A model generated the notes under the pieces. The model was not told where the DNA came from. It did not search any database and saw nothing but the letters and a program-made list of their open reading frames with translations. Source: Sphaerosporella brunnea (Eukaryota > Ascomycota > Pezizomycetes > Pezizales > Pyronemataceae). Taken from it: a DNA stretch of 64,000 bases. The stretch lies in contig VXIS01000226.1 of assembly GCA_008704415.1 (NCBI GenBank), positions 16,538 to 80,537 on the forward strand. The letters run 5' to 3'. Position numbers and translations under genes: made by a program. Numbering within the stretch: position 1 is the stretch's first letter; every line of letters begins with the position of its first letter. Below are positions 16,286-62,436 of this stretch, piece by piece.

Positions 16286-17998
16286 CTACCCATGAAAATT
16301 ATTGCCGCCCTGAACAGCAATGCAGCGCTGCATTACAGTAGGAAGCCGAGAAATCTCCTTGTTGATTTCCTCAATTGTGATGCGATCCCACTCTTCCTGC
16401 AACACCTGTTTCATACCAGCTAAAGTAGTTATCCTTTCGGACCCGCGACGGGTTTGAATTCGAGACTTCATGAGTAACCAAATCCTTTCGATGGGGTTGA
16501 AATCAGGCGAATTAGGCGGCCAGTTTACCTTGGGAATACCTGCTTTCTGTCGTTCTGCATTCGTATACCAGCAGTCGTGGCCAGGAGCGTTGTCTTCCAT
16601 CAGGATAAACTCTGGATCCTTCGCCGCAAGCTCCTTACAGACGGGCCACAGTATTGGACGGCATACATACTTAATGTATCGCCAGGAGTCAATACCTTTA
16701 CCGTCTCCCTTGTTGATGCGTTTTAGCTTGTGTTTCTTGCCGCGAAAGGACTGAGTCGTTGCCGGTGCTTTTGTATTTGTCGCTTCTGCTGCCGCCCTGA
16801 TCTCACGGGCGATACGAAGTTCCTTTTCGCGGAGTTGTTGCCATTCCTCGGTTTTTTTCCACTCTGTGTTGAGCCTCGTTTCTTCCTCTTCAATTTTTTC
16901 GTTGAGGAGCGCGATCTGCTTGCGTGCTTCCTTTCGCTCGGCTTCTGTTTCGGAACTCCAAATGTAGAATGGACCCTAAAATCGTAAGTACTAATACTTC
17001 TATCGACTGAGCTTTGTTACCTTATATCCCCACTTAATCATACCCCAAACCATAACGGTGGCTTTATTTTTCTTTGTCGCCCCTCGACAGTCCTCCTCAT
17101 ACTTCTCATCATTACTCCTCCACACTCGAGAGATCCCAAACGTACCGCCAATCTCTATACTCATCTCATCCGTAAAACCATACCGTGCCCACTCTTTATC
17201 TGGCCGCCAATCCTTGCGCTCCTGACAATACACCAACCGTTGAACCTTATTCTCTGGCTTCAAAATGAATTTAAACTCTTCTCTGTATGCTTTAATCCCC
17301 CGCTCATGTAAAGCATTCAGAATCGTCATTAAAGAGACATGATTGAACCCCGTCACCTCCTGAATTTCAATAAGTGACATATGTCTAGTAGCCCAATCAC
17401 GCTTCACCGTCATCACAAGAATGTCTTTCTCCTGCTCACTTAAAGCCTGAGGGCGGCCTGTTGAAACTCTTGGCTTCGCTGCTGCCAAAAGCTCACTCAA
17501 CGGCACTTCTTCCTCAGCCAATAAACGGGTGAGAGGCACTTCTGGCTGTTCTGCATCACCAGCAACGACTCTGTTTGCTGGCTCGGCGGCTCGGTCACCA
17601 GCAACGACTCTGTTTGCCGGCTCGGCGCCTCGATCACCAGCAACGACTCTGTTTTCCAGCTCCGTGCTTGCATCGGCGGTGATGGATAGGGTAGCGAAGG
17701 TAATGGGCAATGATGCGGCATCGTTCTCTTTCTGTTCTGCTTTCTCTTTCTCTCTTTTGGCAATGCTCTGTAGCATGGCATGCTTGCATACATCGTGCAC
17801 AGTGGATTTAGGAAGATTGAGCAAATCTGCAATTTGTCTGACGGTCGGTCCATTTTTGCGATCGGAAAAGCGCAGAGCGAGGATAGCCCCTCTCCTTGTG
17901 GGACTGAGTGTCTTCCCTACTCCCCTATTAGGCATCTCTATGTCTACCGCTGTCTTTGCTTGCGTACCTGAGAGGTTCTTTTGCAGTTGAGGGCGCAT
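16286..17998 (-). CDS. Tc1-like DD34E transposase with one intron
   Basis: Transposase that cuts and pastes the surrounding element. Two exons, 17998-17021 and 16975-16286, joined across a 45 nt intron (16976-17020, GTAACA...TTTTAG), give 555 residues. An N-terminal helix-turn-helix (TVRQIADLLNLPKSTVHDVC) precedes a low-complexity linker with a 13-residue repeat (NRVVAGDR units). The catalytic residues are Asp277 in TDEMS, Asp in MEDNAPGHD and Glu in NSPDFNPIERIW, with 34 residues between the last two. Between the first and second Asp sits an unusual charged, coiled-coil-like insert of about 85 residues (EKIEEEETRLNTEWKKTEEW), followed by KYVCRPILWPVCKEL. No frame breaks are seen. Confidence 0.9.
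17556..17660. repeat. 39 bp minisatellite inside the transposase linker
   Basis: Copies start at 17556, 17595 and 17634 (TCACCAGCAACGACTCTGTT...), about 2.6 units with few differences. The unit is a multiple of three, so copy-number change would add or remove 13 residues without shifting frame. Confidence 0.8.
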
Positions 17999-18126
17999 TT
18001 TGCGAGGTGTAGATCGATAGCTACGTAGCTACAGGCGAGCTCGTGCGGGGTTGATGCCTGCACGTAATTTTGGTGTGGTACCGGCCGGGTAACAGCTTGT
18101 CCGGATCATTGTTTTATGGGCTAGTA

Positions 18127-44196: not shown

Positions 44197-44419
44197 TTAA
44201 GATGTTGCACATTACTCCGGCCCTTACCTTGCAGAGCATCCGCTACCGCAGCGGCGAACCCCAAGCAAATCTCCTCTTTTGAGTCTTTGTTCCTTCTTAT
44301 ATACCTCCGGTTCCTCTTCTCGAACCTACCCCATACTCAGCAACGTTCGGTCTTGTCTTACCTTTGACCTGCAACCACCACTAAAGCGCCACTTTGGGCC
44401 GACGCCACTTCCAACAAAC

Positions 44420-45438
44420 TGTAAAACCACTAGGTTCACTAAACCGCGTACAAGGAAGATAGGCCAAACAGTAATCCTTTTCTAAGGAAAAGACACTTGT
44501 TGGGCGAAGAGCTTTTAGATACGGGATCGGTAAAGATTCGCTAATGGTACGAGTATATTCGTACCGAAGGGAAAATAGGATAAAGATTTCGAAACGAATA
44601 TAGATTGTGTAAACGACAATATTGTTAAGGCTGAACCTCACAATATCCTAACGATGATGTCTGCTAACTCTAGTGGTCTCTCAACTCGAGGGAAATCTCG
44701 CGGGTTATATCCTGACGGATTCGCCTTTGAGCCTCAAAGTTGATTTCCAATCCTCGGACGAACAATTGCCCCGATTGCCACGTAAGGGTACCGAGCTTCT
44801 TTGACTAGCCAGGGATTATAGATAACCCCCACTCCAACTCGGACACTCTTCTGCAGCTATGGCGTGATTGAACGCGTAAGCTTTGATGCCTAGAATGCCC
44901 TATTGAAGTGCCGCAGTAGCTATGACGTGATGACCAATTACCGAAGTGACTTTGGTACTTATCAAGTCTTGTCACAGGTGCTCCCCTCATATACCCACAG
45001 GGTACGTTCCGGTATAACGGTCGGGCGCAACGTGATGTGAGTTATTTTGTACCCTGGAAAAAACTATTTTTCTATGGGAACCGGCAACTAACACACTTTT
45101 TGCCATATAACTCACGGTGAATAACCTGTGACAACTGCAAGTTGTTAGACCAACACAGATGTTATTATTCATTTGTATGCGCACGAATGGTGAGTTATTT
45201 TGTACCCTGGAAAAAACTATTTTTCTATGGGAACCGGCAACTAACTTCACCATCGCCATTATGACGTAAGTCTTGTAACTCTTAGGACACTTCCTAATAG
45301 AGTGGACTTATAGATGATTATACAGCCTCACTGTTGATAATCATCACCGTCAATAAACCGTTAGGTAGCCCTTAAGGTAATGTAGCCATAACTCGTAAGG
45401 GGGTACCAGAAATGGTACTGTGGGAGGTGGGTGTAACA
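44420..45438 (-). repeat. element A 3' LTR
   Basis: 1019 bp. It contains two copies of a 55 bp internal repeat (starting GAGTTATTTTGTACCCTGG, at about 45038 and 45191), shared with the other LTR. Confidence 0.95.
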
Positions 45439-45452
45439 CCACCTCCCCCCTT
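45439..45452 (-). promoter_or_regulatory. element A polypurine tract
   Basis: AAGGGGGGAGGTGG on the coding strand immediately upstream of the 3' LTR, the primer site for plus-strand DNA synthesis. It confirms the element's direction. Confidence 0.85.
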
Positions 45453-45653
45453 ATAAAGGTTTGTCCGCGAACCGCAGTTGTTGGACATGGGGTGTTCTCC
45501 TGCCATCGTAAACTTCGTAAAGAAAAAACAAAAAGAAAAAACTTAACACTGTACCAAAACCTATACAAGGAAAAAATGTACATGACCAGGCGTCTTGTCA
45601 GCCGTTAAAAAACCTGGATCCCCTAATAGCTTCACCAGGAAAAAGGTTCTGAC

Positions 45654-48600
45654 TCAGCCTCTTAACCTGACTCTCCTGTCCTTGGCAGCTTGTGGGAATT
45701 TCCGATGGAACTTTCTCAAAGCTGCCTCACCGGTACCTTCAAAACATTCCCACGGTTCTTCTGTCCAGTCTTCCTCATTTGGGAACCCTTTCCACTTGAC
45801 CAAGTACTTGATGGTACCAGTACTGTCACATGAACTACCTAGGATCTCATCGATCTCCCAGAGCCCTTCTTCGTCAAGGTCCATCGCATCTTCATCTTCG
45901 ACTGCAACTGCAGGAGGTCGAAGGCCCTTTTGCGACTGTCTGTATGGCTCAAGCAGCGAAACATGGAAGGTAGGATGTATACGCCATCGCTTAGGAAGTT
46001 CAATCCTTATAGCGGATGGTGACACTACCTTTATCACCTTGAAGGGTCCATGCATTTTCGCATCTAGCTTGCGAGATGGTCTTCTTGTCCGAAGGTTCTT
46101 GCCATTGAGCATAACAAGATCACCAACTTGGTACTTGGGTGCAGCCTTTGACCGTTTGTCATAGTGCTTCCGCATAGATTCACGGGTCTGTTCCAATGCT
46201 TCCTTGCACAACTTATGGATGCTTTCCATCCAGTGCGCATAGTTTCTTGCCGACGGGTTTTTCACCTCAGCCTCAACAGGCCAATTTGTTCTTGGGTGAT
46301 AACCGTAGTTGGCAAAGAAAGGTGACAGACTTGTAGCTGTGGTGACGGAGTTGTTATACGCGTACTCAGCCATGGGAATCATTTCTACCCAATTATCTTG
46401 CTCGTAATTGCAAAAGAACCTCAGGTATTGTTCCACAGTTTGGTTGACGCGCTCCGTTTGACCATCAGTCTGTGGGTGGAAGGCAGTGGACATTCCACGT
46501 TTAATCTTCAAGAGATCCATTAACGTTTCCCAAAATTTGGAAGTGAAACGTGCATCTCTGTCCGATATGATGCTACTAGGCAAGCCGTGCAATCGCCATA
46601 CCTCCCGCAGGAATACGCGTGCAACATCGGCAGCTTTCTTCGCATCCTTCTTTAGCGGAATGAAGTGACACATTTTTGTAAAGCGGTCGACAACAACCAT
46701 CAACTGGTCACAGTCCTCTGACAGAGGTAAATCTGTGATAAAGTCCATTGATATTGAGTCCCACGGGGCATACGGAACTTCTAGAGGAGACAACACTCCA
46801 TAGCGGGCGTGACGTGCAGACTTAGCTTTTTGGCATTCTGGGCATGAGTTCACATAGTCCCGAATCCAAGCATCCATTGTAGGCCAGAAGAAATTGCGAC
46901 GCACTAACTCTACGGTCTTGTCTGCTCCCATATGGCCAGCAACAACCGAGTCGTGATCTGCTTCCACAATTTGCTTCTTTAAGTCCAAGCTGTCAGGAAC
47001 GTATAGACGGCCTCTGTAGTACAGGGCTCCATCGTCATATTCCATGCCTTCACTAGGATTACCGCTCATAGCATTCTCGTAATCATGCATCCAAGCTTCA
47101 TCTTGTGCTCCAGCAGTAAAGATTTGCTCAAGTAGTTCACTACTGAAACGTACCCTGGGGATAGTCTGTAGCTTCGCCGAAGAAAGAATAACCTGTTCGC
47201 CTTCAACTGTTACCAGTTGGTCGGGTCGCAACACCCTGTAAATGGGTTGGTTTTCGTTTTCTTCGATGCTACCTCCCCCCTTTTGTGGGCGGTACTCCGG
47301 ACGCCTAGACAATGCATCGGGTTTCCCATTCTGACTACCAGGTCTATATATGATCTTAAAATCATAACCTGCCAACTCTTGTGCCCATCTTGCTTGACGA
47401 CGATTCAACACTTTTGATGTCGTAAAGTATTCCAGATTCTTATGATCTGTATACACCAAGACGGTGTGAGCGGCTCCCTCGAGATATCTTCTCCATTCCT
47501 TAAAGCATGATACTATTGCTAGCATCTCTTTATCATGAATTTCGTAATTTATCTCTGCCTTGTCCATTTTACGTGAATGGAAGGCAACGGGATGAAGTCT
47601 CTTTTCAAATTCTTGGGACAACACACCACCAATCGCAAAGTCACTTGCATCGGTTTCCATAATGCATTGCAAGTCTGGGTCATAGTGTTTCAGGATCGGA
47701 GCTGAAGTAAAGCGGCGCTTTAATTCTTCAAAACTCCACTGGGCTTGCCTATTCCATGCCCAAGCATTTCCTTTCTTCGTTAAGTCAGTCAAAGGCTTAG
47801 CGATCATAGAAAAGTTCTTGATGAAACGGCGATAAAAGTTTGCAAACCCCATGAAAGACTGAACGTCCTTCACGGAAGTTGGCACTTCCCAGTCCAGGAT
47901 AGGTTTGCACCTTATCTTGAGCCATGCTAATTCCTTCTGCCGAGATGATATATCCCAAGAACTCGACTGTAGACACATGCCATTCGCACTTATCAGGTGC
48001 AAGGGCAAGTTTATATTCCATTAAACGTCGGAGTACTTCACGAACTAGTTGTTCATGTTCTTCTTCAGTTTTGGAGTATATCAGGATGTCATCGATATAG
48101 ACAACAACTCCTTGGTCAATAAGATCTCTCAAAATCTCAGTCATCATGTTCTGAAATGTGGCAGGGGCATTAGCAAGCCCAAACGGCATCACTAGATATT
48201 CATAATGACCATATCTAGTTCGGAAGGCCGTCTTCCATTCATCACCCTTCTTAATCCGAATAAGATTATAACCGCTCTTCAGGTCAATCTTAGTGAACAT
48301 CTTGGCTCCTTGAACACGATCTCGAAGCTCGTTCATTAGTGGTAAAGGGTATCTGTTGAGCACAGTTACTCGGTTGAGACCACGATAGTCTACCACTAAT
48401 CGGATTCCTCTACCATGCGGCTTCGGAACGAAGAGAATGGGTGCGCCAGCAGGCGACTTGCTTGGTCGAATCTTACCTTCGCTCAACATTTGGGTAAGAT
48501 ATTCCTTCAAAGCCGCTAGTTCCTTTTCTGAGAGGGCATAAATCGGTCCCCAAGGTGGTTGTTCACCATCCTTGATATCAATTGCATGATCAAAAGATCG

Positions 48601-49254
48601 ATGCTCTGGAAGTTCTGCAGCAGCTTCAGGACTGAATACTCTGCTGAACTCTTGATATTGCTTAGGTACCATTTGTGTCCAGTCGAGAACTAGTGCTTCC
48701 CCATCAGGACGTACCATTCCAATAAGCCCAAACATATGAGGATCTAATCCCATGTGTAGGATTGCCTCGTCAAATTCAATTGTGAATTCTTCGCTTTTGG
48801 TTTTGGTACAGTTCCGTTGACAGTGCTGGGAATCAAACTTGATGTTTCCTTCCCACAACCCAGAGGGTTGGTGCTTTGCAAGATACCACCATGGTAGAAT
48901 TAGATCACACGAGTCCTCCATTGGGGAAACCTCAAAGGTTTCCTTATCGAAGTGATCTCCATGTCTAATGGTCAAAGGGAAGGTATACTGCTCACCTGCA
49001 GTAGATACCGAGTCACCTTCAAAATTCACCATTCGTACTGGTTTTTGACGACGCACTGTTGGGATGCGATACTTCTCTACTATTCGGTCAGAGAGTGTAA
49101 AGCACGACGCTCCACTGTCTGCCAGACAGCGTACTGAAATTTCTTTCTTATTGTCCCATGACAACGTCATGTTCAGATAAGGTCTTGGTCCATTGACAGG
49201 AGGTTTGAAGCGCTTAGCTTCAGGAGCTCCGTCAGTAACGATTTTCCTCTTCAT
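45654..49254 (-). pseudogene. pol: element A pol polyprotein, one frameshift
   Basis: Starts at the ATG at 49254. Order on the coding strand: aspartic protease (CLADSGASCF), reverse transcriptase (VVYIDDILIYS active site), RNase H (METDASDFAIGG), integrase zinc finger (HMGADKTVELV ... CPECQKAK), integrase core with Asp in SMDFITDLPL, Asp in SDRDARFTSKFW and Glu in TDGQTERVN at DD35E spacing, and a chromodomain at the end (LVKWKGFPNEEDWTEEPWE). The frame breaks once near 47905, between RT and RNase H, where GTGCAAACC carries one extra base. The two parts are otherwise open (485 and 784 codons). Confidence 0.93.
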
Positions 49255-49850
49255 GATGGGAATCTGTTATTGAATAGCCTTTCGACACTATTCTGGCCAC
49301 AACGGGTCACTAAATTTTTTGCGTATTGAAGTTTTTTGTGGGTCACTTGTGGGTTTTCAAAACTGAATCATACGCAGACACGCCTGCGTGTTTCGGGTTT
49401 TGAACCCATCCTCAGTGCGCATTTTGTCGCAACAAAATCCAAAACTTTTCAATTGACTCAAAAGCAAACAAAAAACAAGACCAAGCGAAATTCCCAAAGG
49501 TTCATCCAGACAGACAAAGGAAATCCAATCCAGTTCTTCCAGAAACCCAAAACAAAACAAACATCCGCAGATGAACAAAGGAAACCATATTCCATAACCC
49601 CGTACTAGAAATCCTATCTAGCGGATTGTTAGCTTAGAATGGCTATTCCAACAAGGCAAGGGATCCTTCTGATCCTGAGTAATGCAAGCTGACCAAACTA
49701 TTGACGCACCAACCCCGGCGTAATGCGGGGAGGGAGGCACCCCCAGTAGTGAGCTTTCGCTACACTCTGACCAGTCGTTTGTCAACAGCAAGGGCTTCTT
49801 GCAACAGCTCGCCTTGAACAGGGTGGTGGGAACTTACCCAAGTTATCCCA
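49255..49850 (-). other. element A gag-pol spacer
   Basis: About 600 bp without a gag- or pol-like frame lies between the gag stop and the pol ATG. This is unusual, since most gypsy elements overlap or fuse these genes. Confidence 0.6.
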
Positions 49851-51269
49851 CTATTCCTCCTTCTCAGAATCACTCTCCAGTAGAGTGATGCGACGAGGCG
49901 GCAACGAAGACGAGGAGATTGCCGGGCGGGCATCGCGGTCACAAAGGCGATCCACAATGCTCCGGGCACTAATTTTCGGACGCTTATTGGTGCCCGAACT
50001 GTTAGCCTCTTCGGCTTCAATGGCAGCGTCGGGAATTCGGCGCTTCTGCCCAGCCAGCTTACGAGCTGAGGTCGTAACCTTATCAGCCGTACAGCTGCTC
50101 CATCTGTGGCCTGACTTGCCACAGTGAAGGCAGAGGTTATCTTTCTTACGCTTTTCAATAAGCGTAGGAGCGATCCCCTTCAACTTGTCATTGGTGAAAG
50201 GCTTTTCTGCCTTACCAACGGCCTTTCCCTTTCCCTGACCCTTGTCACCTCGTTTACCGACCTTATGGTCGGAACCTTGAGGCTTCAGCGGGTCAGAGTT
50301 GCCATTCTTGGAGCCTTTTTGCGAGGAGTTCTTGTGACTAGAACCCCTTATCTCCTGGACTTGTTTTCTGAGAGCAGCCTCCTTTGCGAGGTGTTTCTCA
50401 TACTCACGTCCAACACGCTTTATCTTAAAGATAAAGGCTGTGTCATCGTCTTCGGCTAAATCCGAGTATGACATCCGCTTGCGGAGTTCCTCGGATAAGC
50501 CGCCAAGTAGCAGGTTTCTCCAAACTACTCCGGAGAGACCCACAAGGTGGTTTCGTGTCTGCATTTGCTGCAGATATGCGTCTATGTTCTTTTCATAGCG
50601 CAGCGCTTTCATCTCCTCGAGCATGTCGTCATCTTCATGCTCATTGATGAACTCGGCATCCATGGCTGACATGAATGCCTTCCAGTTATCCTCAAGTTTT
50701 TGTTTCTTGAGGTACCGAGCGCGTGCGTTGAACCAAGTTAACGCATCACCACCCATTGCCTGCCCGATATAGATCAATTTCTGTTTATCGGACTTATAGG
50801 CACCTCGGTAGTAGTCAAACCACCGATCAAGGGAGTCAACCCAATCCCTGTACTGCAATTTGCCGGACTTGCCGTTAAATCGCTCAGGTGAGGGGATCTT
50901 GGGTTGCTCCACGGTCGTGACGACCATCCGGGATGACTTCCTCTTTTTGCGACGATCATCATCGCTGTCTGAGGAGGAGTCGGGGTTACCGAATCCAGCG
51001 TCATCCGGATCAGAGTCATCCGAAGATGACGATGACGAACTAGAGTGCGATCTGGGCACACCTCTAGCAGTCTTCCGCGGAGGCGGTGGGTTACCTCCAC
51101 CCGCAGAACCGGCTTTGGAACTCCTCTTGGAGTCCTTACCGTAGTCTTTCGCGGTGGGGACGGGAGCAGTAGGCAAGTACAACGCGTATAGGCGTTTGTG
51201 CCACTCTGGTCGGAGCGGGACCTTGGTTGGGATCGGCGTAGCGATTACCAAGGGGTACAGTTTTCCCAC
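49851..51269 (-). CDS. gag: element A gag: capsid and zinc knuckle
   Basis: Structural protein of the virus-like particle. A Ser/Asp-rich linker (HSSSSSSSSDDSDPDD) is followed by the retrotransposon gag capsid domain (LQYRDWVDSLDRWFDYYRGA; GDALTWFNARARYL) and a single CCHC zinc knuckle, CLHCGKSGHRWSSC, then a basic tail. It overlaps the end of the upstream coiled-coil frame by about 25 nt in another phase. The real protein may be a -1 fusion of the two, or the overlap may mark a lost base. Confidence 0.85.
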   Translation of the reverse strand: MGKLYPLVIATPIPTKVPLRPEWHKRLYALYLPTAPVPTAKDYGKDSKRSSKAGSAGGGNPPPPRKTARGVPRSHSSSSSSSSDDSDPDDAGFGNPDSSSDSDDDRRKKRKSSRMVVTTVEQPKIPSPERFNGKSGKLQYRDWVDSLDRWFDYYRGAYKSDKQKLIYIGQAMGGDALTWFNARARYLKKQKLEDNWKAFMSAMDAEFINEHEDDDMLEEMKALRYEKNIDAYLQQMQTRNHLVGLSGVVWRNLLLGGLSEELRKRMSYSDLAEDDDTAFIFKIKRVGREYEKHLAKEAALRKQVQEIRGSSHKNSSQKGSKNGNSDPLKPQGSDHKVGKRGDKGQGKGKAVGKAEKPFTNDKLKGIAPTLIEKRKKDNLCLHCGKSGHRWSSCTADKVTTSARKLAGQKRRIPDAAIEAEEANSSGTNKRPKISARSIVDRLCDRDARPAISSSSLPPRRITLLESDSEKEE

Positions 51270-52126
51270 ACAACTCCTTCCTCTTCGTCCTCATCGTCGT
51301 CGACTGGAGGAGGAACAGAAAATTGTTCCTCAATAGGGGCCTTGTTTTTTCCCTTGGTCTTCGCACGCTCTCGAATGGATAGCTCCTCTAACGACTTGCC
51401 ATCCTTTAGCGATTGAGCGAGATCGCGAAGACTTGCTTCCGCATCATCGGGGTTTTGTGTCTGGACCTGTTCGATAGCGAGTTCCAGAAACGCGGCCACT
51501 TGTTTGCGGGTTTTTTCCTCAAGATCCTGCTCCCTGCGCCGGAATTCCTCCTTGGTCTTCTTGCGCTCGGTACGGATCTGTTTTTCAAGGGCTTTGAGGC
51601 GGTCCTCCGTGGTCTTGGACAAGGTAATTAGGGACGTAATGGCCCCACTGTGCTCGTCTGCGACTCCTTTGACATACACCGCAACTTCATTGACAAAGTG
51701 CGCTTGCGTTTCGGCTTGCGCAGCTAAGGCTTTGAATTTCTCGGTCTGTTTTTCATCGGAAGCTTCAAGGGCCAACTGCACGGATTGTGCAAAGTTGTCC
51801 GAAGCGAGACGCACAACCTCAAAATCTCTGCGCTGCGCCTGGGCCAGAGTATCCTTATTGGACTCGGCCTGCACGTAGAGATGGTGTTGTGAAGCTAGTA
51901 GTTCCTTATAGGCTTGAACTAGCTGAGGGAAGACTTTCTCAATGTCTTCCTGGCGCTCGTTAAGTTTCGAGTGGAGATCTTCGAAGCTTCTCAGTCGGCG
52001 GTCAATTGCTTGAGCCGCATCCGATAGCCAGTCTGGTACTTCCACCTCGACAGCGTGCTGAACTAAGTCCACTTTGCTGACGGCTCGACCGTCAACGGTA
52101 TCGATGTCCATAGGCTTCCAAAACAT
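51245..52126 (-). CDS. element A gag N-terminal coiled-coil frame
   Basis: Runs from the ATG at 52126 (MFWKPMDIDTVDG). Almost wholly alpha-helical and charged (QIRTERKKTKEEFRRREQDL), ending acidic (DDDEDEEEGVVWENCTPW). Long coiled coils before the capsid domain occur in several fungal gypsy gags. It precedes the capsid frame and overlaps it. Confidence 0.75.
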   Translation of the reverse strand: MFWKPMDIDTVDGRAVSKVDLVQHAVEVEVPDWLSDAAQAIDRRLRSFEDLHSKLNERQEDIEKVFPQLVQAYKELLASQHHLYVQAESNKDTLAQAQRRDFEVVRLASDNFAQSVQLALEASDEKQTEKFKALAAQAETQAHFVNEVAVYVKGVADEHSGAITSLITLSKTTEDRLKALEKQIRTERKKTKEEFRRREQDLEEKTRKQVAAFLELAIEQVQTQNPDDAEASLRDLAQSLKDGKSLEELSIRERAKTKGKNKAPIEEQFSVPPPVDDDEDEEEGVVWENCTPW

Positions 52127-52207
52127 TGGTGGCCTTGACAAGCCTCAATGGCTTAGTGACTCGGACAACGGATTCGGACATGTTTGCGATATCGTGAGGT
52201 ATATCGC

Positions 52208-52218
52208 TAACAATATAC
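52208..52218 (-). promoter_or_regulatory. element A primer-binding region
   Basis: The coding strand directly after the 5' LTR reads GTATATTGTTAGCG. It does not start with TGG as a tRNA-primed site would. ATATTGTTA here is complementary to TAACAATAT inside the 5' LTR (52418-52426), a possible self-priming pair. Confidence 0.35.
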
Positions 52219-53236
52219 TGTAAAACCACTAGGTTCACTAAACCGCGTACAAGGAAGATAGGCCAAACAGTAATCCTTTTCTAAGGAAAAGACACTTGTT
52301 GGGCGAAGAGCTTTCAGATACGGGATCGGTAAAGATTCGCTAATGGTACGAGTATATTCGTACCGAAGGGAAAATAGGATAAAGATTTCGAAACGAATAT
52401 AGATTGTGTAAACGACAATATTGTTAAGGCTGAACCTCACAATATCCTAACGATGATGTCTGCTAACTCTGGTGGTCTCTCAACTCGAGGGAAATCTCGC
52501 GGGTTATATCCTGACGGATTCGCCTTTGAGCCTCAAAGTTGATTTCCAATCCTCGGACGAACAATTGCCCCGATTGCCACGTAAGGGTACCGAGCTTCTT
52601 TGACTAGCCAGGGATTATAGATAACCCCCACTCCAACTCGGACACTCTTCTGCAGCTATGGCGTGATTGAACGCGTAAGCTTTGATGCCTAGAATGCCCT
52701 ATTGAAGTGCCGCAGTAGCTATGACGTGATGACCAATTACCGAAGTGACTTTGGTACTTATCAAGTCTTGTCACAGGTGCTCCCCTCATATACCCACCGG
52801 GTACGTTCCGGTATAACGGTCGGGCGCAACGTGATGTGAGTTATTTTGTACCCTGGAAAAAACTATTTTTCTATGGGAACCGGCAACTAACCACTTTTTG
52901 CCATATAACTCACGGTGAATAACCTGTGACAACTGCAAGGTGTTAGACCAACACAGTTGTCATTATTCATTTGTATGCGCACGAATGGTGAGTTATTTTG
53001 TACCCTGGAAAAAACTATTTTTCTATGGGAACCGGCAACTAACTTCACCATCGCCATTATGACGTAAGTCTTGTAACTCTTAGGACACTTCCTAATAGAG
53101 TGGACTTATAGATGATTATACAGCCTCACTGTTGATAATCATCACCGTCAATAAACCGTTAGGTAGCCCTTAAGGTAATGTAGCCATAACTCGTAAGGGG
53201 GTACCAGAAATGGTACTGTGGGAGGTGGGTGTAACA
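52219..53236 (-). repeat. element A 5' LTR
   Basis: 1018 bp, nearly identical to the copy at 44420-45438. It should contain the promoter of the element. Confidence 0.95.
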
Positions 53237-53428
53237 CAAACAACAAGCTTTCTCCAGTGACTCATTCGCCTGCATCTTCCCGTCCTTTGTCTCCCCTTGT
53301 GGGCCGTCCCAAAAACTAGCTTCCATACAGTCACTCCTTGGTCCTATGCCTCCCAAAAAGCAGCAGGAAGAGGCCCCGCCCGCATTGAACTCGTCATCGC
53401 TGAAGCGGCCCTTGGCACCCAAAGCACC

Positions 53429-53940
53429 TGTAACCTTTTCGTGAGCTTATAAGATCCGCTATTTCACAGATGCAAATAAACTCAGAACCGTTTGTGTATC
53501 TGACTTGATAAATACCAAGAGAATACTCGCACTCAGGTCACTGATCAACTCAGTATTTATTGATGATAGTCGATACAATCTGGGCTGCTCGAAAGGCCGT
53601 ATCGAAAGAAGAGAAAAGAATGAATGTAGGAAAAGCTCGTAGCTTTTATAGCCAACGATGCTGAGTACATCATGTGATAACAATCTGGTGGCAAATTCGA
53701 AACTAAGGAAAGAATGGTCTAGAAGACCTGCAAGTCTGCCTTGTGGAAACTAGAAGATTCCAAAGTGACGTAGCATCGAAGGGGCTAGAAAGTGCTAGAA
53801 ACATGGTGACAAAACATAGTAAAGAAAGTAATGGAAACTCGTAGAATGCTGTTATCATACCATCGTTACTGCCTTATAGTTTTATATCTTAGTAAGGAAA
53901 TACGTAAGAAAGAAACCATAGTAAGTGTAATAATCTTACA
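53429..53940 (-). repeat. element B 3' LTR
   Basis: 512 bp, TG...CA ends, apparently identical to 60758-61269. Confidence 0.96.
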
Positions 53941-53950
53941 CTTCCCCTTA
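53941..53950 (-). promoter_or_regulatory. element B polypurine tract
   Basis: TAAGGGGAAG on the coding strand directly before the 3' LTR. Confidence 0.85.
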
Positions 53951-53967
53951 AAAAACAGTTGAAACAG

Positions 53968-56736
53968 TTACTCACGTAAATCAAAAACGGAAGAAGCAAT
54001 AGATGACATAGGAGAAGAACAGAAAGAATCATCAGAAGGAAAGAAAAAATCGGGAGGAAGAGTGACTGCGGTGGAGGTGTAGTCCTGGGTCCTCTTCGAA
54101 AGGAATTCCTGGATGGAATCAGCGCCAGTGTTGCGTACATTCTCATCAGGTTCCCAAGAGTTGTTTTCAGGTCCATAATTCTCCCAAGAGATATACCAGT
54201 AATCGATACCGTTAATCTTCTTGTGGTCGAGAATCTCCTTGATGTTGTAGAGAGTGTGGTCGTCTTCTTCTTCGTCATCGTAGCTGGAGGGAGGAGGCGG
54301 AATTGTCTTGTCTGAAATTCGCTGGAAGAGCTTGAGTTTGTCCTGGGCGAAGATGGGATAAACACGCTTGTTCTTGGGGAGTTCAAGTGTGCAGTTGCCT
54401 GTATCCTCATCGACTTTGGTGATCCTGTAGGGCCCTTCCCAAACTTCCATAAGCTTCCTAACCTTGCCCTTCCCTCGAGAACGTCTCTTGTAAAACACCC
54501 ATTGTCCAACCTGAAGTTGAACCTTAGGATTCCTACGCTTGGCAGCAATGCTTGCCTGGCGGTGACGTGCTGCCAGCAATGCATCTCGAGCCACAGCATT
54601 GTTGATCTTTTGCTGCTCGAGGTACTCATTGACTGCAGGGACATTCGAATCGAATTCAACTGGTAAAATGCGAGGGATATGACCAAATTGAACTTCGTGA
54701 GGGGTACGCTTGATGGTGGTAGAAGGAGAGTGGTTGAAGGCGTGCTCAACACGCCAGAGGTGACGAGACCAGTCTGCCTGTTTGTTGTTGGTGAAAATCC
54801 GAAGCATTTGAGCGATGGTACGGTTGGCCCGCTCCACTTGTCCATTGGTGTTTTGATGGAAAGCGGTGGCCATGAGGAGGTCGGTACCAATCTGCTTGTG
54901 GAGTCCTTGCCAGAACTGCGAGGTGAATCGAGGGTCTCTGTCCGAAACGATTGACTCTGGGAGTCCGTAGCGAGCGTAGTAGTGTTTAATGAAAACATCC
55001 GTAACGTCCTTTGCCGAAAATCCGTCCTTTAGGGGAACCAAAACAAGACCAGAAGAGAAGCGGTCAATGATGACCATGATGTGCTTGAAACCGTCCGAAG
55101 AGTTGAATGGACCAAGGAAATCAATAGCAATTGACTCCCATGGGCGAAGGGGAATTTCCAAGAGGCGAGCTTCGCCAATTGGCTTGGTGGTGGCATCTTT
55201 GTTGCGCTGACACTCAAGGCATTCTCTGCAGAACTCGTCGATGTCCTGCTTCATCCTAGGCCAGTAAAAACTCTGCCTGCATAGGATGTAGGTCTTCTCG
55301 GTGCCTTGATGTCCCACACTCTTGTGACAACTCTGCATGATGACATGCCGGACTGAGGAGGAGGGATTGTCTCTGGAAAGGACTGCATTGGGGACGTAAA
55401 CTCGAAGGTTGGAGGTGATGGAGGGGTCATCTAGCACAACATATCCTGTGTCATGCCAGTGAAATGGCTTGCGAATGCCATTCTTGACCATGGGATCGTC
55501 TTCATATGCCTGCTTGAATGTAGGGAGCATGGCCTTCCCTATGTGGTTGTCAAGGAAAAATGCGGGTACTCTGTTGCGAGTGTCGTAATGAATGACTTCC
55601 TGGGAACGATTTCCTGGTGGGTGTTGAGGTGGTTCGAACATTTCTGCATCCTCTTTGTCCAGAAGAGGAGTTTCGTCCGAAATCGATGGCTGAATTTTTT
55701 GCTGAGTCCCTTCCCCTTCAAAATCCTTGTTGGAACCTTGGTCATGCTCTGCCGATTCCTTATCCTTTTTCTCCTGTTCCTTACGAGCCTGAGCTCGAGT
55801 TAGAAAGGCCTGGGGATCAGAGGGTATGGGTTCCATGGGTGGGGAAATGGGCTCAATGGGCCGCTCTCTCTGGAGTCTGGGTACCAGATGGCGGTGACTG
55901 GATGGGTTGGAAATCTGACTATCTTGGTGGGTGGCAGCTTGGAGGAGCGCACATACTCCACCTGGGTTGGCCTCAGCCTGGCCATAAACCTGTCGATTTC
56001 CTCCTTCGATGGGGTCTTTGTCGACCAAGAGGGGGTTTCTCCTGGGTGCGATGGCGTAGGTTTGGAATGGCGTGACTTCGTCCTGGATTCGCTGGGGGTT
56101 TTCCTGGTTGTTCTGTTGCTGGTCTGGGAGTGTCCTGGGGGTAGGCGTGGTGGTGAAGGTCTGTACTTGTCTGGGTATATCCTGTTTCCACCAAGGGCCG
56201 TCTGGGTGTTGTCTCTCCTGTGGGAATTTCGGGCGTGGTGCGCCTGATTCTGGAGTCCATTGGAGGGCAGGTGCCCTTGAACTATTCGCGTAGGTGATGT
56301 AACCATGGTGGACAAGCCACTCATAGTTGCCGATGGGGTCTTCATCTGGGTCTGGACATTCTGAATTGGGTCCAAATGAATCGTCCATGTCTGTGTCTTC
56401 GTCTGGGGAGTCGTAGAACTCGTCGTCGCTATCGGATTCAAATTGAGCGTGATACTGAGAGTTTGACTTCCAGGTGCTGAAGGTTTCCATGAATCCTGAG
56501 GAATAGTGATATGGGCAGCCGTCTCTGGAGCGGCAGGCTGTCCAGTGGAGGTTTGGGTCGCACCTCTCATAGCGCGAGGCTCCCTTGGGGCGGAGGCTGG
56601 CGGAAGGTTTGTTGTTTGAGGTGGACATCTCATTTGAGACTTGAAGAGCGTGTGAAAAGTGTGAGGAAAGCTTGTCTGTTTCGGTGGAAGGTGGTCTGTT
56701 GAGGAATGGAGGTTGTTGGGTTGAGGAGACTGTCAA
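53968..56736 (-). CDS. pol: element B integrase-chromodomain frame with novel N-terminal segment
   Basis: 922 open codons. Residues from about 40 to 440 are a segment I cannot assign: MSTSNNKPSASLRPKG, a Cys/His cluster (ACRSRDGCPYHYSSGF), very acidic stretches (DSDDEFYDSPDEDTDMDD) and Pro/Gln-rich repeats. Next come the integrase zinc finger (GHQGTEKTYILC ... CRECLECQRNK) and the core with Asp in AIDFLGPF, Asp in SDRDPRFTSQFW and Glu in NGQVERANR at DD35E spacing. A chromodomain closes it (WYISWENYGPENNSWEPDEN). The 5' end overlaps the RNase H frame in another phase; the open frame begins without an ATG. Confidence 0.85.
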   Translation of the reverse strand: MTVSSTQQPPFLNRPPSTETDKLSSHFSHALQVSNEMSTSNNKPSASLRPKGASRYERCDPNLHWTACRSRDGCPYHYSSGFMETFSTWKSNSQYHAQFESDSDDEFYDSPDEDTDMDDSFGPNSECPDPDEDPIGNYEWLVHHGYITYANSSRAPALQWTPESGAPRPKFPQERQHPDGPWWKQDIPRQVQTFTTTPTPRTLPDQQQNNQENPQRIQDEVTPFQTYAIAPRRNPLLVDKDPIEGGNRQVYGQAEANPGGVCALLQAATHQDSQISNPSSHRHLVPRLQRERPIEPISPPMEPIPSDPQAFLTRAQARKEQEKKDKESAEHDQGSNKDFEGEGTQQKIQPSISDETPLLDKEDAEMFEPPQHPPGNRSQEVIHYDTRNRVPAFFLDNHIGKAMLPTFKQAYEDDPMVKNGIRKPFHWHDTGYVVLDDPSITSNLRVYVPNAVLSRDNPSSSVRHVIMQSCHKSVGHQGTEKTYILCRQSFYWPRMKQDIDEFCRECLECQRNKDATTKPIGEARLLEIPLRPWESIAIDFLGPFNSSDGFKHIMVIIDRFSSGLVLVPLKDGFSAKDVTDVFIKHYYARYGLPESIVSDRDPRFTSQFWQGLHKQIGTDLLMATAFHQNTNGQVERANRTIAQMLRIFTNNKQADWSRHLWRVEHAFNHSPSTTIKRTPHEVQFGHIPRILPVEFDSNVPAVNEYLEQQKINNAVARDALLAARHRQASIAAKRRNPKVQLQVGQWVFYKRRSRGKGKVRKLMEVWEGPYRITKVDEDTGNCTLELPKNKRVYPIFAQDKLKLFQRISDKTIPPPPSSYDDEEEDDHTLYNIKEILDHKKINGIDYWYISWENYGPENNSWEPDENVRNTGADSIQEFLSKRTQDYTSTAVTLPPDFFFPSDDSFCSSPMSSIASSVFDLRE

Positions 56737-59165
56737 TGGAGCCGAAATCCTCTGGTTTTAAGTTCTCATGGAGGAACTCATCCGGTGGCGTTATCTCCTT
56801 GTCCTCATCCTCATACAGACGTGAAAGGGTGTCTGCTAATTGATTGCTTTCTCCTGGTGTGTGCTGGATTTGGAAATCGAACATCTGGATGTATTCCAAC
56901 CATCTGGCCTAGTCTGCCAGTGGTCATGGGTTTCGTCACAAGGTACTCCAGTGCCTTGTGGTCAGTAATTACCGTAAATGGTATTCCTAATAGCTTTGTT
57001 TCGAATGCACCTAGTGCATCAACTATAGCTAGAAGCTCCTGGTTGGTGGTGTTGTAATTTTCCTGGGTGGCGGTAAAGCGTCTGCTGTGTATCGCTGCGA
57101 TTCTAGACTTCGAATCTTCTAGATTCTTGCCATGACAAATGAATGCACCCGTCCCCACCCGAGATGCATCTGTCACCAGATACACCTTATCTTCGCCTGA
57201 CTTGATTCTGTCATATCGAAGTGGTGTGAGGGGTACATGTTTTCGGCAAAGATCCTTGATCTGCCGAAATGCATGGTCATGCAGGGCATCCCATCGCCAC
57301 TCAGCATTTCCGGTTAATTCCGTGAGTGGTGCTAGGATAGTGGAGCTGTGAAAAAGGTGTGGTGCCACATAATTGATTACACCTAAAAAGCTTTGTAGCT
57401 GCTTTTTGTTTGTGGGTGTGCGCCAATCCTGTATTTTCCGAATTCTCTCTGGGTGTGGGTGGATCTCATGACCAGAGATAATGTGTCCTAGGAGGCGTAG
57501 CTGGGATGTCATGAACTGACATTTGTCCATCCTGAGATAGAACTTCGCTTTTGCAAGCTGCCGAAAAACTTGCTCAAGGTGTCGCATGTGTTCTTCTCGA
57601 GTTTCGGAAAAGATAAGGATGTCATCTAGGTACACCCATACAAATTTTCCGATGAATTCGCCTAAGATAGTGTTCATGCAGCGCATCATGGTTGCAGGAG
57701 CATTGCAGTCTCCCTGCAGCATGACCTTAACTTGAAAAGAGCCGAGGTCATCTGCATTGATGACATTTAATTCTTCCGATGATGGCTCCACTCGCACCTG
57801 GTGATAGGCGTTGGAAAGGTCTAGAACTGACTTGAAGTTTGCTCTAGCAGCATCCTCTCGGATGTTATCTGCATGAGGTAGTGGCGTGTAGTCCCGTTCT
57901 GTGATGCTATTCCTATCTCGAAGGTCATTCACCCATCTCCATCCTTTGGAGGGTGGTATCTTTGGTGTTCCGAAAATTGAACATGGGAATCTGCCGGGTC
58001 CAGGCACTGCAATTCCCTGTTGTTTCCAATTGTCCAGGTGAGCAATGAGGTCCTTCCGGTAGGCGTCAGGAATACGCCTTGCATGGAACTTGAATTGCTC
58101 TAGTTTGTCTGGATCAAGTCTGACCACATGATTGCATCTATCACGTAGTGGAGGTAATCCTTCTGGTTCCTTCTCTGGGAATACTGTTGGAAACATCTTA
58201 TCGAAAGGTGGGATGTCTTCGGTAGTTGCTGATGATGTGAGAGAGAATGTTCTAGGCTGTCTTGTTGCACACTGGATGGTGGTGTCATGTTTCGGGAAGT
58301 GTGCTGTAGAATCTGCCGTATTCAGGTTCACATGGTTATCCTGAAGGAAAGGCATTCCTAGGATGATGTCGTATGAGCTGACTGCTACTATGAGAAACTT
58401 CGTTTTCTCAGTGAATCCTGGTTTAATTTCGACGTTGGCGTAAGCAAATCGATTGGCGTTTGTCTTGGATCCTTTCGCGGCCATGTGAATGGTGATAGGT
58501 TGCGGCAGTTCTCTGGTAAAGATGTTGTGTGTCTGGGCCCAACTGCTGGACATAAGATTCGTCCCTGTTGTCCCTGTGTCTAGAAGAACTCTCGCCTGCC
58601 TTCCGTTGACATTCATGTTGGTGACCATGTTGTTGATGTTGTCCTTCTTGCTATGTTCTGCTCGTGCAGTTTCGATGAATTCTTCCACAGTTGGTGGTAA
58701 GTTGTCTTCCATTATGTTGACAGTGGTTCTTGCTGATTGAATCCATTTGCCCTGTTGCTGATTTCGTTGCTTGGCTCTGCATTCGTTGATGAAGTGTCCT
58801 GCCTTCTTGCAGTAGAAGCACTTCTTCTCCTGTTTGAGTTGCGCTTTCTCATGGTCTGAAAGCTTCTTGAATTGCTTGTTGTTCCTTCCTTGGTTTCCTC
58901 GTCCTGAGTTGTTGTTGTTCTTGCTGAACTGAGGATTCATAGCATTGCTAGAATGGTGTTGTCCATTTCGATTCAATTGTTGCGGTCGTCCATACTTTCC
59001 AGCTTGGAAAAGAGCGGCATCCTTTCGTTCCGCTAGCTTTCTTGACGTCTTCCCATTTCGCTGTCGATCGATCCACAACCTCAGGCTCAACTGCATAGCG
59101 AAGATCTGGGTGCATAGCATCCAAGAATCGCTGGATTTTGACCTGGGTGTTGATGGCTTTTCCAA
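56630..59165 (-). pseudogene. pol: element B nucleocapsid, protease, RT and RNase H, frameshifted
   Basis: Order: zinc knuckle CFYCKKAGHFINEC, protease with VLLDTGTTGTNL, reverse transcriptase with WRWVNDLRDRNSITERDY and VYLDDILIFS, then RNase H (YLVTDASRVGTGAFI; VITDHKALEYLV). The frame shifts near 56907, where CTAGGCCAGATGG has one base too many, and continues as LEYIQMFDFQIQHTPGESNQ to a stop at 56630. The RT lacks the usual FGL-NAP-TFQ form and reads QGDCNAPATMM. Not translatable as one protein without frameshifting. Confidence 0.88.
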
Positions 59166-60352
59166 TTCGAGCTGCTACCTTTCTCAAGTCGAATGGCAGT
59201 GGCGTTGATGCGGTCCACTCTGCCATTTCGAGTCTGAGAGATCTTATACCAATCATCCCAATATCGATTGACTTCTGTGGATGGAATGATATGGTTCTTG
59301 AGCTGAGTGAGAAACTCATCAAAGTTCATGGTGCCTTCCATGCGTTTGGTATGGTAGAACTCCTTTGCTGTTCCGCTGAGGAAGTACTGAAGCACTAGGA
59401 GTTTCTTGTCGTTGTCTTGAAGCCCTGAAAGCGTCAGGTAGTCCTTGACTTCCTGTAGCCATGCGTCGATGGTGGCTGCATCTCTATCCTGGTTGTCTCC
59501 TGAATAGGTTCGTGGCTTTGGGACTTTAAACTTTTCTGCCATGGCGGTGGTTGCTTGGACTTCGATTCTGGGCCTGAAAAGTTGTTTCCTTGGAGACTGT
59601 GGGTTTGGATTTTCTTCTTCTGAGCTGGATTCGTCTTCTTCAAATCCTCCGGGTGGTCTTGGAGTTTCTTCGTGGCTAGTGTCTCTGACCTCGTGTGGTG
59701 GAGGAGTTGTTTGCCTTGTTAAGTCCAGGTATTCTTGGATGGCTTTGTTTGTTGATGCTGTTAGAGCCGAGTCTGATTTGAATCTTCCTTCTTCGTATAG
59801 GCGTTGCCAGGCCTCACGTAGTCCTTTAGCTCGTTCTTTGGCTTCTTCGGTTGTTGCTTGTTGTATTTCTTGCTCAAGCTTTTCAAACCGTGGGGTAAAT
59901 TGTTCCAACCGAAAGTTGTAAAGTTCCTTCTCAAGCTTGTTGAATTCGGAGCTGGTCTCAATGAGAAGTTCGTAGTTGTAGAGTAGGTCTGATCCAGAGC
60001 TTCTTTCAATCCAGTCAAGGATAAGTTCTATGTGGCTCTGAAGGTCCTGTAGACGCTTGCGTGCTTCGTGTTCTGATTTGAAAACTTGTGCAATAGGTGG
60101 CCGATTTGTACTGGTCTCAGAGATGTCTGATTCGGTCTCTGATTCTGAATGGCCTGATTGAAAGGCTTCGGTTTCCTCTGGTTGCTTCTTTCGTGGTCTG
60201 CCTCTCTTCTTTGGTTGTTGTCTCTGTTCCTCTGCTTCGTCGTGGAGCGCTTGAATGACCTCTTCTGTGGGTATTTCTGGATTGAGGCGTTGGCTCCTTC
60301 TTGTTGCTGTTGGTTGCTCCGTGGTGATGGCTGTTGTGCACTTCCCTGAGGC
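59040..60352 (-). pseudogene. gag: element B gag, no start codon seen, two frameshifts
   Basis: The frame open from 60352 carries RSQRLNPEIPTEEVIQAL, an AT-hook-like basic motif (PKKRGRPRKKQ), charged helices (EHEARKRLQDLQSHIELILD; EQFTPRFEKLEQEIQQ) and the capsid-like domain (KFKVPKPRTYSGD; VLQYFLSGTAKEFYHTK). The first in-frame ATG is only just before that domain. Single extra bases near 59179 and 59039 shift the phase twice before the zinc knuckle. Confidence 0.75.
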
Positions 60353-60757
60353 TTAGGCACTCGGGAATGCTATCGAGGAATTGTTGTCTGTATAGCTCGC
60401 GTCGAGAGCTCTTGAATAGAATTGTGCAGGGCTGTCTCCTGATCGATCTAACTATTCGTCTTAAAGCTTAACCCGGGACTGCTGATACCTCTGCCGGTTA
60501 ACTAAGGCCTTGTTGACGCTTGTCGTTCCTAGGATTGTCCTAAAGACTCGAAAATGTATTCGTTGTGCTTGTCGTGCTTAAGGTGAGTCGTACTTGTGGT
60601 TGTGTCTTGATTCGTGATATCGATATGTCGTAAATTCGGAAATTTCCTGGCCAGCAGGGCGGCTTCGAGTAGGGGAGAACCAGGTGATCAGTCTGGTCTG
60701 AGGATCAAAGATTGTAGGTTGGGTAGAGAGAAAAGATACTGGTCGGAGTGAAAAAAA

Positions 60758-61269
60758 TGTAACCTTTTCGTGAGCTTATAAGATCCGCTATTTCACAGAT
60801 GCAAATAAACTCAGAACCGTTTGTGTATCTGACTTGATAAATACCAAGAGAATACTCGCACTCAGGTCACTGATCAACTCAGTATTTATTGATGATAGTC
60901 GATACAATCTGGGCTGCTCGAAAGGCCGTATCGAAAGAAGAGAAAAGAATGAATGTAGGAAAAGCTCGTAGCTTTTATAGCCAACGATGCTGAGTACATC
61001 ATGTGATAACAATCTGGTGGCAAATTCGAAACTAAGGAAAGAATGGTCTAGAAGACCTGCAAGTCTGCCTTGTGGAAACTAGAAGATTCCAAAGTGACGT
61101 AGCATCGAAGGGGCTAGAAAGTGCTAGAAACATGGTGACAAAACATAGTAAAGAAAGTAATGGAAACTCGTAGAATGCTGTTATCATACCATCGTTACTG
61201 CCTTATAGTTTTATATCTTAGTAAGGAAATACGTAAGAAAGAAACCATAGTAAGTGTAATAATCTTACA
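60758..61269 (-). repeat. element B 5' LTR
   Basis: 512 bp, apparently identical to 53429-53940. The leader between it and gag (60353-60757) is non-coding; the expected primer site just after the LTR reads TTTTTTTCACTCCG and matches no primer I recognise. Confidence 0.96.
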
Positions 61270-61487
61270 GCACCCGCTTCTCCAGCCAAGAAACAAACCA
61301 AGTGGACCACCGAAGAAGACGCATTGATAATAGGGCTCCGCGGCCGCGGCGAGAAGTGGGAGAATATCTCGAAGCGACTTCCCGGTAGGAGTGCCATTTC
61401 ATGTCGCCTGCATTATCAGAACTACCTGGAGCGAAGCTCCGAATGGGACGAAGACAAAAAGAACCGACTGGCCCGGTTGTACGAAAG

Positions 61488-62436
61488 GTATGTTCTTCCT
61501 CCACACCATCAAGGTGAGGTGTGTTGTTTTGAAGATCACGTGCGCTGACTGAAACCCGCGTTTCTTTTTTTGCGCCTGGTGGTTGGTTATCCCCTCGTCC
61601 GTAGAAATTGGGTTTTCCGGCCAATTGGCAGGTAGCAACGGACTCCGCGCCCCACAACTCCATGGGGACCCAAATGTGACCCCTCGGTGTCTTAGAACAA
61701 AGTGATGTAAGGCATATGAACAGTCTATGATGAAGTTATGAGAGATGATGATTGGCAATTGCAGGATAAATAGCGAGTTTTTGTGCGAGTGTGAGAAGCA
61801 TCAACAAGCCCCCAATGTCCGATAGACAGCTGCGTCCCAGGCCACCTCGACTCCCTTCCCCTACTCTATCATCCTCACCTTCTTCAGAGTCTCATGAGGA
61901 CATCTCATTGCCCTCCCCTGTGAGTTCTGGGAAGAAATCCTCTACATCTAGAGTCTAAGACATACCTTTCGGACGCTGCACCCTTTCGGACAGCCTGCAT
62001 TAGTGCATGCAGCCCCCGCCTCGACGACAATATCTCGACAACGAGAAGTCCAATTGCTACCAAACTTGAAAATAGTCATCCTGAGATGTTACGGAACAAA
62101 CAAAACTCCAGCCAGCCCCGGTGCATCTCCTTCTCCCCAAGCGACGCCCCAAAGCCGCTGTAAATCCTCCTACCCACCCCACCCCCACCCCACCCCCAGC
62201 CCCAAACGCCTCCTAACCACCCCCGGCCGTCGTGGGACCGCCGGGTCATACCATCACCCACAAAACCCTCTCCCGCTCGCTTTCCTGATCCTCAGTAGGT
62301 TCAGGTTGACCAGGAGGCGCTGTATTGGGTTTTCTATGCATAGAGTGCAAAGGTGCTTTGTGTTACCTGTGAGGCGCCCCGCTTTTATACCCCTCCCTGA
62401 TAAGCCCCCGCCTCCGCACCTCAACCACCATCAACC
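61488..62436. other. Myb intron start and leader of the pogo-like gene
   Basis: Contains the donor side of the Myb intron and then unassigned sequence. A 47-codon Ser/Pro-rich frame lies at 61815-61958 (MSDRQLRPRPPRL...) but has no recognised domain. The left end of the pogo-like element must lie in here but cannot be placed without its right end. Confidence 0.4.

Follow-up and report, generated by a model that had tools for sequence, protein, structure and literature searches.

A Myb gene of the fungus Sphaerosporella brunnea carries two different Ty3/gypsy retrotransposons with chromodomains, A and B, within 192 bp of each other. Why was one gene hit twice? The stretch of DNA that we analyzed (the window, 64,000 nucleotides) corresponds to contig C142:16538-80537, its base 64000 being the end of the contig. 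The genome that we searched amounts to 50.57 Mb in 640 contigs, as against 51.6 Mb in 872 contigs for the published assembly (PMC6908789). The earlier note on this locus had offered two kinds of answer, either targeting of the elements or relaxed selection on the gene. Our analysis favors the latter, since the window gene is probably a dying old paralogue that was dispensable and tolerated several insertions, while another copy, on contig C121, stayed intact. The features of the locus are listed in Table 1.

Table 1. Features of the interrupted Myb locus, in window coordinates.
Feature	Position	Strand	Basis
Target duplication of A, left, CAAAC	44415..44419		Read directly
Element A, Ty3/gypsy with chromodomain	44420..53236	-	LTR comparison and Pfam domains
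Target duplication of A, right, CAAAC	53237..53241		Read directly
Presumed 5' leader of Myb	53242..53345	+	Similarity to C121 paralogue
Myb codons 1-27 and two bases of codon 28	53346..53428	+	Rejoined frame
Target duplication of B, left, GCACC	53424..53428		Read directly
Element B, Ty3/gypsy with chromodomain	53429..61269	-	LTR comparison and Pfam domains
Target duplication of B, right, GCACC	61270..61274		Read directly
Remainder of Myb exon 1	61275..61487	+	Rejoined frame; Myb_DNA-binding
Greater part of Myb intron 1, with its GT donor; ends before the acceptor	61488..61587	+	C121 intron match
Repeat C, interrupted by D; left end TATCC common to other copies	61588..61950		Genome matches and alignment
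Element D, DDE_1/HTH_Tnp_Tc5 transposon nested in C, cut by contig end	61951..64000	+	Pfam and genome matches

Both A and B have the makeup of Ty3/gypsy chromoviruses, with a reverse transcriptase, an RNase H, an integrase, a chromodomain at the integrase C-terminus, paired long terminal repeats (LTRs) and target duplications. Our domain scan, which covered the minus-strand frames, gave Pfam matches in A to RVT_1 (4e-38), RT_RNaseH (1.2e-35), the integrase zinc finger Integrase_H2C2 (4.5e-20), Chromo (2.7e-7) and gag, while the rve match (30.3 bits) falls just below the 32.6-bit cut-off. For B, the matches are to a protease, RVT_1 (2.9e-28), RT_RNaseH (7.4e-21), the integrase (rve at 33.0 bits, for the same cut-off) and Chromo (8.7e-7). 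In each element the domains are spread over more than one frame. The two reverse transcriptases are 32% identical over 219 amino acids, and A and B therefore belong to different families, in agreement with the earlier note. Equally correct was its statement that both are antisense to the gene, since their large Pfam-bearing frames are on the minus strand and Myb is on the plus strand.

The LTRs offer a view of the relative ages of the two insertions. Those of A (44420-45438, 1019 bp, and 52219-53236, 1018 bp, with ends TGTAAA...GTAACA) differ by 6 substitutions and 1 gap column across 1018 aligned bases, whereas those of B (53429-53940 and 60758-61269, 512 bp each) show 0 mismatches. With the age of A, B should have accumulated about 3 differences over its 512 bp, and it is thus probably the younger of the two. 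Family B as a whole looks like a very recent burst.

We confirmed base by base that A sits in the presumed leader of the Myb gene with the duplication CAAAC, about 105 bp upstream of the ATG, and that B, with the duplication GCACC, interrupts codon 28 after its second base. The distance between them given previously is exact (53237-53428). Once the flanks are rejoined at both duplications, exon 1 is an open frame of 99 codons that begins with the ATG at 53346 and runs to 61487, where the GT donor follows, the last codon being completed across the splice, and it matches Myb_DNA-binding at 5.1e-12. The empty sites can thus be rebuilt, as had been claimed, and the idea of two independent insertions in one gene, with a recent loss, is supported. 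The end of the leader and the start of the open reading frame (53316-53380) are 78% identical to the equivalent place in the C121 paralogue.

That the Myb frame is otherwise clean, another of the original claims, holds for exon 1 but not beyond it, where C and D occupy intron 1 and exon 2 was not found. The earlier note had overlooked that the window copy consists of exon 1 only, and it had also missed repeat C, the nested D and the intact C121 paralogue with its exon 2. Intron 1 runs for 100 bases, with GATCACGTGCGCTGAC common to it and the C121 intron, and then gives way to repeat C at 61588. Of 45 places listed in the genome, 10 begin at exactly this base, and three of the four other aligned copies run on past 61950, the point at which the copy in the window is cut off. 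A plasmid search with repeat C as query gave no match, nor did an Rfam scan of 38000-64000 or a tRNA scan of the whole window with the bacterial code. Element D, which matches DDE_1 (1.9e-25, Pfam) and HTH_Tnp_Tc5, starts right after a TA, as Tc1/pogo-type elements do. Judging from coordinates, five other contigs carry its end in inverted pairs with a spacing of 1.7-2.6 kb. Since these relatives span up to 2.6 kb, several hundred bases of D are probably missing, and its position inside C makes D the later arrival of the two. The host DNA from A to C, about 500 bases long, hence contains three insertion points, the fourth element being nested.

Exon 2 of the C121 gene, used as a query against the genome (2 candidates scored), gave one match, which was C121 itself; the same kind of search found exon 1 despite 82% identity. 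Exon 2 of the window copy may be located past the end of the contig, or it may belong to sequence absent from the 50.57-Mb assembly. With an exon 1 that is homologous to the Myb family and a remainder that is disrupted or missing, the window copy would qualify as a pseudogene, and as far as can be judged from its sequence it probably no longer works.

The intact paralogue, at C121:68264-69062, is a two-exon gene for a protein of 202 amino acids (FN846DRAFT_270929), in which the same exon 1 is followed by an intron and by 102 codons of exon 2. The earlier note had regarded an intact second copy, with the window gene as a duplicated fragment, as fatal to its reading. Such a copy does exist, yet as an old paralogue it did not give rise to a recent fragment. 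Indeed, C121 matches the window copy at 81 of 99 exon-1 residues and Trichophaea hybrida does so at 80 of 95, which indicates that the split is old. Over the 99 codons, dN is 0.113 and dS is 1.65 (NG86) or 1.00 (YN00), values of dS that are near saturation and imprecise, and dN/dS is approximately 0.07-0.11. The differences at codon positions 1, 2 and 3 number 16, 7 and 47, respectively, so that third positions account for 47 of 70. The dS and this third-position excess both point to an old duplication, after which the copies remained mostly under purifying selection, which makes the window copy a long-kept duplicate and not a fresh fragment. It is extremely improbable that it is a recent partial duplicate of the C121 gene that never worked. 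Such an origin would fit the absence of exon 2 and the presence of an intact copy, but it is contradicted by the age of the split, by a dN/dS near 0.1 and by the fact that the donor site survives along with some of the leader and most of the intron. The two copies are also unlikely to be alleles, because their proteins are 82% identical and a single-spore culture was the source of the published assembly (PMC6908789).

How did the window copy evolve before it was interrupted? At columns that are at least 95% conserved in 119 homologues, it departs from the consensus at 2 of 52, compared with 1 of 52 for C121, and at columns at least 90% conserved each departs at 3 of 59. These near-equal departures give no strong sign that selection had been relaxed by the time the elements arrived. 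In the Myb part, the window copy is less similar than C121 to 17 of 21 homologues and tied in the other 4. This slightly greater distance, measured on rows that are non-independent, may be a mild sign of faster change. The clean exon 1 says little in itself, since at the LTR divergence of A about 1 neutral change would be expected in 297 bp. The branching of the tree leaves both the window copy and C121 as possible orthologues of the Trichophaea gene. PF00249 and PF13921 are present in all 120 homologues listed (the best 120 of 1342), and among these, some of which are unnamed metagenome proteins, no second copy was seen for another Pezizomycete.

We then considered where A and B insert elsewhere in the genome. 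Searches for LTR starts with at most 2 mismatches returned 82 for A and 165 for B, and 0 for reversed control patterns. Collapsed to insertions, these correspond to 73 for A and, for B, to 81 from the 100 ends listed, scaled to approximately 134. In a separate comparison with the LTR of B, 40 matches were scored out of 258 candidates and all were 100% identical. Twenty of the 100 B ends listed fall within 1.4 kb of a contig start, which suggests that B probably breaks the assembly.

The proximity of A and B in the Myb gene is a reason to think of targeting, in which both would be guided by their chromodomains, or by some other tether, to chromatin near gene starts. Two chromodomain elements do lie within 192 bp, in a presumed leader and in codon 28, and uniform placement predicts 0.07 such pairs genome-wide, but the pair was picked after the fact, many other family pairs exist and insertions may be non-uniform. 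On a wider scale, among the 82 A ends and 100 of the 165 B ends, at least 3 A-B pairs, that of the window included, lie within 5 kb of each other (LTR start to LTR start), as against 1.2 expected if placement were uniform. Precedents can be cited in both directions. Tf1 and Tf2 of fission yeast are found in the promoter regions of Pol II genes, but MAGGY has a chromodomain that binds H3K9-methylated histone and that redirects Tf1 insertions to sites with this mark (PMC4600332). Chromodomains have similarly been reported to steer retrotransposon integration into heterochromatin (PMC2864245).

The neighbors of the two families speak against a common target. We sampled 30 A and 30 B loci, those nearest in sequence to the window LTRs, which represent 23 A and 22 B insertions with the window's own excluded, and scanned singly at least the longest flanking frame of each insertion within 1.5 kb. 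Transposon domains, among which we counted DUF659 and RNase_H on the assumption that they are of transposon type, were found beside 8 of 23 A insertions, with three of the 8 located in copies of one repeat, but beside 1 of 22 B insertions, or 2 at most, the second being one hAT match from a pooled scan that was not placed to any one insertion (Fisher p 0.022 and 0.071, respectively). In the singly scanned frames, 14 A insertions had neither a transposon nor a host match, one further A insertion had a weak kinase match below the cut-off, and 19 of 22 B insertions had no domain match at all. Host-type domains lie beside 2 B insertions (fungal rhodopsin and ankyrin), and one more match, to NPHP3_N, was left unplaced. 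The pooled scans (83 A frames and 82 B frames) gave 16 transposon-type Pfam families out of 18 for A versus 4 out of 14 for B, as sorted by us. The contrast between A and B is suggestive only, because A frames are longer on average and short frames rarely match. A and B thus show no single site preference, which is evidence against one common mark.

Repeats were also apparent around some of these sites. Three A insertions are in copies of one other gypsy-like repeat (L020, L023, L025 and L042), and L034 and L040 have a second repeat in common. Recurring bases make up 23% of the flanks of A, 11% of those of B and 5% of background stretches, rough figures because certain sites are represented by both of their ends as separate loci and because that of B includes the Myb paralogue and an ankyrin repeat. 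A long frame of ankyrin repeats harbors one B insertion, whose duplication is ACGTC (L069:1-1500 and L068:2013-2546, C325); three odd domain matches on the minus strand of the ankyrin frame were put down to reverse reading of a repeat.

All 22 target duplications differ (14 of A, 7 of B and the A site of the window), and no shared motif is apparent by eye. One B site (L073/L072) has a 4-bp instead of a 5-bp duplication, and an A pair (L046/L027) and a B pair (L051/L050) that yielded no duplication were dropped, an LTR end having probably been truncated or misplaced by the pattern. Taken together, these observations, although made on small samples, make it quite unlikely that the elements were targeted, and the proposal that both went to promoter-proximal chromatin, or to a shared mark read by their chromodomains, was not borne out.

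Might B on its own prefer genes? Rebuilt empty sites lie in frames of at least 378 codons in 3 of 7 B cases and 1 of 14 A cases, while 375 codons are attained at 8.3% of random points drawn in 74 kb of the genome. The excess for B has a binomial p of 0.016, with a threshold that was set after the data were seen and with few sites; the 7 B sites are those with both flanks and a duplication, and the Myb site is among the 7 but not among the 3. With frames of at least 200 codons (5 of 14 for A, 3 of 7 for B and 40% for random points), neither family differs from random. The notion that family B, as a very recent burst, enters coding rather than transposon-rich DNA, and that its chromodomain might, unlike that of A, read a euchromatic mark, is a speculative one that we consider unlikely.

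The surroundings of the gene suggest yet another explanation, namely that the Myb copy sits on the margin of an island rich in transposons and that regional accumulation, and not the gene or its redundancy, accounts for the insertions. All four elements are within the final 20 kb of the contig, which stops inside one of them, and family A adjoins other transposons at the 8 of 23 insertions mentioned above. However, the 44 kb to the left of A look gene-rich, with one evident transposase, when frames are judged by eye. We regard this explanation as rather unlikely, if less so than targeting. By eye as well, frames at 16286-18028 of the window resemble a Tc1-type transposase split into two pieces.

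We therefore return to the death of a redundant paralogue as the best account of the locus. The fungus would long have maintained a conserved Myb gene in duplicate; the copy on C121 stayed intact, and the copy in the window would have become dispensable and tolerant of insertions. A and B inserted independently, each with its 5-bp duplication, A presumably before B given that the LTRs of A have diverged and those of B have not. C lies in intron 1, which it may have entered before or after A and B, and D subsequently entered C. These insertions could have been retained thanks to the intact copy, which would cover the function. If so, the locus offers a clear case, with relative ages, of the death of a long-kept duplicate by successive insertions. 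The apparent contrast between A, more often near transposons, and B, young and mostly away from them, could provide a test of what it is that fungal chromodomains read.

How do these components compare with known systems? Chromodomain elements make up the majority of fungal gypsy elements (PMC3248453). A and B resemble fungal chromoviruses in their domain content, the Chromo match that ends the integrase frame, the TG...CA LTRs and the target duplications, and differ from them in that the minus-strand frames scanned gave no Pfam match to a protease for A and none to gag for B. With regard to the fungal Myb family, exon 1 of the window copy has the same Myb domain and C121 represents the full-length form, but insertions break up the window copy, for which no exon 2 was found. 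Duplicate genes inactivated by transposons are a known general kind, and the window gene is like them in being an old paralogue with an intact partner and with insertions in leader, exon and intron; only the number of insertions in approximately 500 bp of host DNA sets it apart.
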